Assembly (NCBI GenBank): GCA_001823055.1
Contig: MHTH01000013.1
Span: forward strand, 1 to 35,713
Origin: Candidatus Vogelbacteria bacterium RIFOXYB1_FULL_42_16
GTDB taxonomy: Bacteria; Patescibacteriota; Minisyncoccia; Phycocordibacterales; XYD1-FULL-46-19
DNA length: 35,713 bases
Direction of reading: 5' to 3'
Shown: positions 414-7,248 of the stretch, piece after piece
Position numbering within the stretch: position 1 is the stretch's first letter
How the letters are laid out: every line of letters begins with the position of its first letter
The notes under the pieces: generated by a model
The model's input: only the letters and a program-made list of their open reading frames with translations
Database searches by the model: none
What the model was told of the DNA's origin: nothing
Made by a program: the position numbers and the translations under genes

Positions 414-829
414 AGCTGGTCAGTAGGCAGTCGCTCTTTGTCGCAAGACAGGGGGAGGAAAGTCCGAACACTGTCGTCATACCTTTCGAGGTGTGGCGGT
501 AAAATGGTAGCGGGTAACGCCCGTCTGGTGTAAACCAAGAGGTGCGAACAGAAACGACCCGGTTAAGTCCGGCTGAAACGGCAAAATCCTTACTGCAGTG
601 CAAGGCCGTGTCTGCACACCAATCATGGCATTGTGTCTAAGTTTTTTGTAAATTTGAAACTAGATTCAATACTAAACAATCTAAAATTCAATTGGTTTTT
701 AAAAATTGATTTTAGACACAAAAAACGATGCCATAATTGGTGTGCAGAAGTGCCGCTAGAACCAAGTAGTAATATTTGGTCCAGATAAATGATTGTCCAA
801 GACAGAATTCGGCTTATCGCTGGCCAGCT
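414..829 (+). ncRNA. rnpB: RNase P RNA (bacterial type A-like) with a long extended hairpin
   Basis: Hallmarks: GGGGGAGGAAAGTCCGAACA, GAAACGGCAAAATCC, GTGCAAGGCC, AGATAAATGATTGTCC, ACAGAATTCGGCTTAT; P1 pairing AGCTGGTCAG with CTGGCCAGCT. Confidence 0.93.
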
Positions 830-5393: not shown

Positions 5394-7196
5394 ATGGATT
5401 TAAGTCGTGTCAGAAACTTCAGTATCATTGCTCATATAGATCATGGAAAAAGTACTTTGGCGGATCGGCTTTTGGAAGTGACTGGCACCATTGAAAAAAG
5501 AAAAATGCGCGAACAAGTGCTCGATAGTATGGAGTTAGAGCGAGAGCGGGGTATTACAATAAAGATGCAACCGGTGCGGATGGATTATAGTTTGGCTGGA
5601 GAAAAATATGTTTTAAATCTTATTGATACGCCGGGACATATCGACTTTTCTTATGAAGTTTCGCGTTCACTTAAAGCCGTCGAAGGTGTCTTGTTGTTGG
5701 TAGATGCCGCTCAGGGTATTCAGGCCCAGACTTTTACGGTTTTAAATATGGCTCAAGAATTAGGACTAACTATTATTCCCGTGTTGAATAAAATCGATTT
5801 GCCTAATGCTCGAGTAGAAGAAGTCAAAGCCGAAGTGGTTAATTTATTGAATTGCTCGCCCGTTGAAGTGATTTGTGTTTCTGGCAAGACGGGCGCTGGC
5901 GTGGATCAATTATTAGAAACGATTGTTCGACGGATTCCACCAGCTAAAGCTGAATTTGATGCTGATGCTTCGGTGCGGGCACTGGTTTTTGATTTTGAAT
6001 ATTCTACCCACAAAGGGGTGGTGGTTTATGTGCGAGTACTTGATGGTCAAATTAAAAAAGGGGACAACCTATCTTTTTTTGCTTCGGGTGAAAAATTTAC
6101 TGTTTTGGATTTAGGTTTTTTTCGACCGGGACAAGTTTCGCGCGATTGTCTGGAGGCCGGTGATATCGGTTATTTGGTGACCGGTATTAAAAAACCCGGT
6201 GAAGCAAAAGTTGGCGATACGGTTATTTCCCCGCTCGCTCCCTTGCCACCTGTTCCCGGTTATATGACGCCCAAGCCGGTGGTCTGGGCGTCTGTCTATC
6301 CGGAAAGTCAGGACGATTTTGCTCTCCTCAAGCAGTCGCTAGAACGACTACATCTACAAGATGCCTCCTTGTCTTTTGATGAGGAATCTTCCGGCGCTTT
6401 GGGGCGTGGCTTTCGGTGTGGTTTTCTCGGCATGCTTCATCTGGAAATTATTACCGAAAGATTAAAAAGAGAGTTTGGTCTAGTTTTGATTGTAACCACT
6501 CCCAGTATTAGCTATCGATTGATTTCTAAACAATCTGGTTCAGAAATGATGGTCTATTCACCTCATCTTTTTCCTCTCGAGACCAAAGATTGGCAAGTGT
6601 TTGAAACTTGGGTGGCGATTAGGATTATTACTCCGGCCAATTATTTAAGTCCACTGGTTCAGTTATTACATGAACACGAAGCCGAGATTGTCGCGATGGA
6701 TAATTTTGGCCACGGTCGCACTGTTTTGAATGTTAAAATGTCTTTACGTGAATTGATGCGTGGATTTTTTGATGAATTGAAAAGCGCTTCTTCCGGCTTT
6801 GCCTCTTTTTCTTATGAATTATCGAGTGAACGTCAGGCTGAAGTCGCTCGCTTGGATGTCTTGGTCAATAGCGAAATCATTTCGGCTTTTTCCAGAATTG
6901 TTTCCGGACGACGAGTTCAACGCGAAGCCGAGGACATGGCCGAGCGTTTGAAAAATCTGATGCCAAAACAATTGATTACGATTAAAATTCAAGTTCAAGG
7001 TCTCGGCCGAATTTTAGCCGCTCGATCAATTTCGGCTTTACGCAAAGACGTCACCGACTACCTCTATGGTGGCGATATTACGCGTAAAATGAAATTGCGT
7101 GAGAAACAGAAAAAAGGCAAAAAGAAAATGCAACAAATGGGGCGCGTCAATATCCCTCAAGAAGTCTTCTTGAAGATGATGAAAAATGGGGATTAA
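5394..7196 (+). CDS. lepA: Elongation factor 4 (LepA GTPase)
   Basis: NFSIIAHIDHGKSTLADRLL, RERGITIK, DTPGHIDF, NKIDLP; LepA C-terminal domain (MKLREKQKKGKKKMQQMGRVNIPQEVFL). Confidence 0.97.
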   Translation: MDLSRVRNFSIIAHIDHGKSTLADRLLEVTGTIEKRKMREQVLDSMELERERGITIKMQPVRMDYSLAGEKYVLNLIDTPGHIDFSYEVSRSLKAVEGVLLLVDAAQGIQAQTFTVLNMAQELGLTIIPVLNKIDLPNARVEEVKAEVVNLLNCSPVEVICVSGKTGAGVDQLLETIVRRIPPAKAEFDADASVRALVFDFEYSTHKGVVVYVRVLDGQIKKGDNLSFFASGEKFTVLDLGFFRPGQVSRDCLEAGDIGYLVTGIKKPGEAKVGDTVISPLAPLPPVPGYMTPKPVVWASVYPESQDDFALLKQSLERLHLQDASLSFDEESSGALGRGFRCGFLGMLHLEIITERLKREFGLVLIVTTPSISYRLISKQSGSEMMVYSPHLFPLETKDWQVFETWVAIRIITPANYLSPLVQLLHEHEAEIVAMDNFGHGRTVLNVKMSLRELMRGFFDELKSASSGFASFSYELSSERQAEVARLDVLVNSEIISAFSRIVSGRRVQREAEDMAERLKNLMPKQLITIKIQVQGLGRILAARSISALRKDVTDYLYGGDITRKMKLREKQKKGKKKMQQMGRVNIPQEVFLKMMKNGD

Positions 7197-7248
7197 TCTT
7201 TACCCCACGAAATAATCACGAAAAACAATGACCTGATTGGTGTGCAGG

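Follow-up and report, generated by a model that had tools for sequence, protein, structure and literature searches.

The RNase P RNA gene (rnpB) of this Candidatus Vogelbacteria genome carries a long hairpin that is very probably a MITE-like palindromic element, lineage-specific and non-autonomous, residing there as one copy of many. The element would have spread by DNA transposition, with one copy settling in the P16/P17 arm. The evidence comprises membership of a dispersed family, inverted ends, direct repeats, covariation between the arms, retention of P15 and L15, and recurrence in other genera.

Position of the Hairpin in the RNase P RNA

The window (the whole stretch of 35,713 nucleotides analyzed) contains a bacterial class A rnpB at positions 415-832 of the forward strand. 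It scored 116.6 bits against RF00010 in cmscan (gathering score 100), above the curated cut-off for class A, and aligned full-length with positions 1-367 of the model. This was the single RF00010 match in the 611-kb genome, whose small size, like the traits of its relatives, is consistent with CPR/Patescibacteria. The conserved core of the gene was present, with AGGAAAGUCC and ACAGAAUUCGGCUUA intact. Just upstream, at 341-379, lies a perfect 19-bp palindrome, ACCCCCCATTGTCAAGGTG.CACCTTGACAATGGGGGGT, followed by a T-rich run, which is probably a terminator.

The initial annotation had described a long hairpin at 611-748 of the window and proposed that it replaces P15-P17, including the L15 loop. 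The hairpin is real, the element proper occupying 612-747, with U611-A748 as a flanking pair outside it. In the Infernal alignment it falls within the P16/P17 region of RF00010 as an insertion flanked by GCAAGGCCGUGU and AAGUGCCGCUAGA, and the model passed through P15 before reaching the long insert. The proposed replacement therefore holds for P16/P17, whereas P15 and L15 are both kept. Directly beneath the insert are P15 (5' strand GGC at 604-606; 3' strand GCC at 752-754) and the internal loop L15, with C607 and GUGU on the 5' side (607-611) and AAGU on the 3' side (748-751), all on the forward strand; only P16/P17 is made up of the element. These assignments come from the Infernal alignment, together with the fold of the region for the 5' strand of P15, and with the parses of rnpB from relatives for the other three strands.

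As the annotation had also noted, L15 lacks the GGU that usually, though not universally, pairs with the 3' CCA of tRNA; the loop reads 5'-GUGU/AAGU-3'. It had linked this loss both to the insertion and to the absence of encoded CCA from five of six tRNA genes. That count is correct within the window, where only tRNA-Gly has CCA, but does not extend to the genome, in which 13 of 30 tRNA genes checked have CCA directly downstream. Nor did the link withstand comparison with relatives: those with ordinary P16 hairpins (10-47 nt) have L15 loops similarly without GGU, typically GUGU/AAGU or GUG/GAGU, so the insertion did not cause the loss. In a survey of CPR genomes (PMC8172020), the UGG motif is missing from 23 of 35 circular genomes, and GGU is absent from many CPR and cyanobacterial RNase P RNAs, so that its absence does not disqualify a gene from the class. 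Given the short-P16 relatives, this survey and the tRNA genes with CCA, the insertion and the change in L15 are separate matters; judged from the sequences compared, loss of GGU is a trait of the clade.

A Dispersed Family of Palindromic Elements

BLAST of the window's own genome with the 138-nt hairpin as query yielded 68 pieces, which resolved into 17 full-length copies (130-136 bp, the rnpB copy included) and at least three solo ends. A mobile hairpin of a dispersed family, lodged in rnpB, had been suspected from a match of 23 out of 27 positions to 7221-7247; that match is genuine, lengthens in BLAST to 31 nt with 84% identity (E = 0.003 in the genome), and belongs to a family far larger than had been claimed. 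The matching sequence, at 7217-7247 of the forward strand, is a solo right end, which lies 20 nt downstream of lepA (ending at 7196) and has no left half upstream. The closest full-length relative of the rnpB copy is at C10:18916-19049 (71% identity over 136 nt; E = 3.5e-12). The rnpB copy fitted the family alignment over its whole length, with a mean identity of 0.64 (range over all copies, 0.58-0.70). An assembly chimera through a shared repeat is unlikely because even the closest family member shares only about 70% identity with the rnpB copy, and one at a near-identical repeat is unlikely because the copy fits the family from end to end at a mean of 0.64.

All full-length copies ended in CTGCACACCAAT...ATTGGTGTGCAG or near variants. 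Terminal inverted repeats, as in MITEs, were present in all 17, each end departing from the 12-mer at no more than one position, apart from one end that departs at two. The consensus opens with CTGCACACCAAT, a variable NNNNN and CATCGCGTCTTTGTTTTTT; after some 60 AT-rich bases it continues with AGACGCAAAAAACAATG, a second variable NNNNN and ATTGGTGTGCAG. The element measures about 135 bp in all: its inverted ends are conserved over 12 nt, the arms span about 27 bp each, and the AT-rich core takes up about 60 nt. In rnpB, the left arm (612-638, forward strand), delimited by the alignment of copies, comprises the conserved 12-nt end, a variable CATGGCAT and TGTGTCT; the right arm (714-747, forward strand) is AGACACAAAAAACGATGCCATAATTGGTGTGCAG, complementary to the left arm in the copies, the fold and the alignment. 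Searching the genome with the end pattern recovered 12 exact copies, as against none with a backwards control pattern. The pattern from end to end occurred in this genome only, and was absent from the other 396 of the 397 genomes of its order and from the other 15 of the 16 of its family that were scanned. A wider scan of genome contigs gave one match, in a KSB1 MAG; this was a near-perfect palindrome with an unrelated interior, and we rejected it as unrelated to the element.

At 612-747 of the window, and in other copies, the blocks GCGTCT/AGACGC and GTTTTTT/AAAAAAC occur in crossing order in the two arms. Because of this order a simple hairpin cannot accommodate both pairings, and it is possible that they form a conserved pseudoknot or a switch.

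Signs of Mobility

Direct repeats of 4-10 nt flanked many copies, e.g., GGATAAC, GGACAAC, GTCAAC and GTTTTGTTTT. The summed flank-repeat score was 71, compared with 21 ± 7.5 when right flanks were dealt to other copies, and none of the 2000 permutations reached the observed value. Target-site duplications, another feature of MITEs, are thus a property of the family as a whole, with clear repeats of 4-10 nt at about 9 of the 17 copies. In the same flank analysis of 17 copies, no direct repeat was found at the ends of the rnpB copy itself. The exact insertion point in rnpB cannot be fixed, because the outermost C-G of the element falls exactly where an ordinary P16 has its base.

The two arms agreed in 94 of 102 cases at six variable stem positions, compared with 54.5 ± 5 after permutation. 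The arms therefore covary: their sequence changes but their complementarity is kept, pointing either to selection for the hairpin or to a folded intermediate in copying.

Among the 11 TGTGGAYAAC (DnaA-box-like) sites of the genome, five directly adjoin copies (C2:29066, C7:19442, C10:4224, C23:29896 and C23:34783), and at these sites GGAYAA is mostly repeated at the opposite end of the copy. The element may have a target preference for such sites. A search for an autonomous parent among the GIY-YIG genes of the window's genome found none, the single such gene (C8:7706) being without matching inverted repeats.

Insertions in the Same Arm of Related Genomes

Among parsed rnpB genes across the order, P16 was variable in both length and sequence. 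Inserts of >60 nt were present in P16 of 12 of the 42 relatives' rnpB genes with a reliable parse; G020 was left out, its "P16" of 254 nt running past the gene. The short P16 hairpins of relatives are unrelated in sequence to the element and stand on the same P15/L15 base. The palindromic families found in P16 of several genera were unrelated, each being dispersed within its own genome: the P16 family of G059 recurred at about 17 other loci, that of G038 at about 12 and that of G048 at 3, while for G011, G027, G373 and G335 at least one further convincing copy was present. The P16 sequences of G009, G011, G029, G094, G373 and G089 (AGAGGTTGGAG / CTGGAAACTGG type) are partly of low complexity, and their dispersal counts were given less weight. 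The strongest cases of dispersed P16 families are those of G000 (the window's genome), G059, G048 and G027. In G038, G027 and G194, one palindrome was found in two arms of rnpB, i.e., P16 and the arm upstream of P12. Other mobile hairpins have settled independently in this arm in relatives, two of them with a nuclease gene still in place.

The dispersed palindrome of G038, the family of which occupies both rnpB arms, was also seen inside the 23S rRNA gene (L156, G038:C28:26600-27000).

Comparison with Known Systems and Alternative Explanations

MITEs and bacterial palindromic elements, e.g., the Rickettsia palindromic elements, are short, ORF-less and multi-copy, with inverted ends and direct-repeat flanks. 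Palindromic elements within functional genes are tolerated because the element folds on itself. The window's element resembles them in being short (130-136 bp), ORF-less and multi-copy (17 copies), with inverted ends and flanking direct repeats; it differs in that, of the genomes scanned, this one alone has its end sequence, and in that its host site is P16/P17 of RNase P RNA. The literature searched, most of it other than subscription titles, contained no paper that connects RNase P or tmRNA with the Rickettsia elements, and none describing a P16 of RNase P RNA formed by dispersed palindromic elements.

We propose that a nuclease or transposase mobilized the element, that its moves left short direct repeats behind at many sites, and that one copy either inserted into the short P16 of rnpB or took its place. 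The ancestral short P16 would have been the target of insertion, with its remnants trimmed afterwards. Pairing with itself, the insert would form a long stem on top of P15/L15, which are kept, at a distance from the conserved core, and would be carried as a passenger arm. Because the hairpin is self-contained, P15/L15 is retained and the core is untouched, the RNase P RNA most likely still works with the hairpin in place.

Compatible with such a mobile hairpin, albeit somewhat unlikely, is the idea that the long stem acts as an intervening sequence excised by RNase III, which would leave the mature RNase P RNA in two pieces. The known intervening sequences of 23S rRNA are likewise long stems in peripheral arms, and in G038 palindromes of one family occur in both rnpB and 23S rRNA.

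It is improbable that the copies, instead of being MITEs that duplicate their target sites, are integron attC-like or IS200/REP-like single-strand hairpins that a tyrosine enzyme mobilizes. The covariation of the arms is as expected of folded-strand substrates, and left flanks often end in AAC while right flanks mostly start with G. However, direct repeats flank many copies, and the R boxes (RYYYAAC/GTTRRRY) and cassette arrays that characterize attC sites were not found: the right flanks, which include GGATAAC, GCAAGAA and ACGAACC, are not consistently GTTRRRY, and the copies are scattered singly.

Very improbable is the reverse direction of spread, with P16 of rnpB as the source and the dispersed copies as its offshoots. 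Any one copy could be the ancestor of all, and the rnpB copy is no outlier, but the ends of the copies include no P15/L15 or further rnpB sequence, the rnpB copy is no closer to the rest than the others are (its mean identity of 0.64 falling inside the range of 0.58-0.70), and the unrelated dispersed families in the same arm of other genera fit a target rather than a source. That P16/P17 was extended in place in this lineage, the genomic look-alikes being chance palindromes or terminators, is scarcely credible: P16 does differ among members of the order in both length and sequence, and PMC8172020 reports an extended P15 helix in CPR, but against this stand 17 copies of equal length with a common 12-nt end and a conserved internal block, a full-length match at E = 3.5e-12, and direct repeats flanking many copies.

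In the part of PMC8172020 dealing with diverged CPR RNase P RNAs, UGG/GGU is missing in most and P15 is extended in one genome; no extension is identified there as a dispersed mobile element, unlike that in the window. Repeats of the STRR type lie inside rnpB of heterocyst-forming cyanobacteria, according to the passage of PMC2858038 that cites Vioque 1997. They too represent a repetitive DNA family within rnpB, but STRR are short tandem repeats, whereas the window's element is a single palindrome of about 135 bp with inverted ends and no tandem units. In these bacteria, one peripheral arm of a nearly universal, essential ribozyme repeatedly accepts mobile DNA, and such inserts explain some of the unusual differences in length among their RNase P RNAs.

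GIY-YIG Reading Frames between Inverted Ends

P16 of G046 and P16 of G219 each enclose an intact ORF, about 83 codons long, with a match to the GIY-YIG catalytic domain (E = 6.4e-18 and 8.5e-17, respectively); in both genes the ORF is flanked by inverted ends (CCCCCACCACTTTATG and CCCCCCACCAATTTTATG). Both genes were called as rnpB by Infernal (117 and 39.4 bits), the weak score of G219 being due to its inserts. No second DNA copy of the G046 insert was found in its own genome. The P16 of G048 has ends of the G046 type and no ORF, and downstream in the G219 gene (P19 region) there is a sequence, CCCCCCACCAATTTTGTTTCC...GGAAACAAAATTGGTGGGGGG, with the ends of the P16 GIY-YIG insert and again no ORF. 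Flanking inverted repeats scored above all 60 mononucleotide shuffles for 19 of the 72 GIY-YIG ORFs examined, some of these being weak or possibly neighboring hairpins. The ends (CACCCACACCAATCCCTTTAT) of a GIY-YIG element in G009, which belongs to the window's own taxonomic family, have ten bases, CACACCAATC, in common with the window's element.

These shared bases suggest, without proving it, that the GIY-YIG elements have an ORF-less relative in the window's element; a GIY-YIG parent is plausible, and may have been a GIY-YIG-encoding hairpin element such as those still intact in P16 of G046 and G219. Many inserts at the tops or bases of stem-loops have been described in CPR rRNA genes, where those with GIY-YIG match no intron class and look to be outside classical homing; RNase P and inverted repeats are not mentioned in that paper (PMC11270868). 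In the present case, inverted repeats enclose the GIY-YIG ORFs, and ORF-less derivatives accompany them. In the literature searched, mostly other than subscription papers, we found no report of an rnpB gene with GIY-YIG ORFs enclosed in this way.

More tentatively, we envisage as a possibility that this lineage and its relatives harbor a class of very small DNA elements, of about 300 bp, in which an ORF of about 83 codons for GIY-YIG lies between hairpin-forming inverted ends, accompanied by ORF-less derivatives. The structure-selective nuclease would mobilize its own hairpin, the peripheral helices of RNase P RNA (P16/P17, the arm upstream of P12, and P19) would serve as recurrent safe harbors, and the window's element would belong to an ORF-less branch. 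Such GIY-YIG hairpin elements might be a minimal mobile element, with a mechanism that is directly testable. The natural series of short P16, ORF-less palindrome and palindrome with nuclease gene offers a test of insertion tolerance in an essential RNA.

Several further loci were observed. The rnpB of G219 (L236, G219:C6) has three palindromic inserts, the third of which, CCCCGCACCTACTTTG...CAAAGTAGGTGCGGGG, lies shortly past the 5' strand of P4; a mir-4520 match in this locus fell below the gathering score and was dismissed as just a G/C-rich palindrome. In G009, the GIY-YIG element with inverted ends (L147, G009:C44) adjoins a tRNA gene, and GGTGCCTA of the tRNA is repeated on the far side of the element. 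In G041 (L224, G041:C7:359672-360569), rnpB is immediately preceded by a GIY-YIG ORF that has inverted ends (CCACGTGAGATAA), and P16 of that rnpB starts with CCCCGTGGGATAAAA, which is possibly related to those ends.
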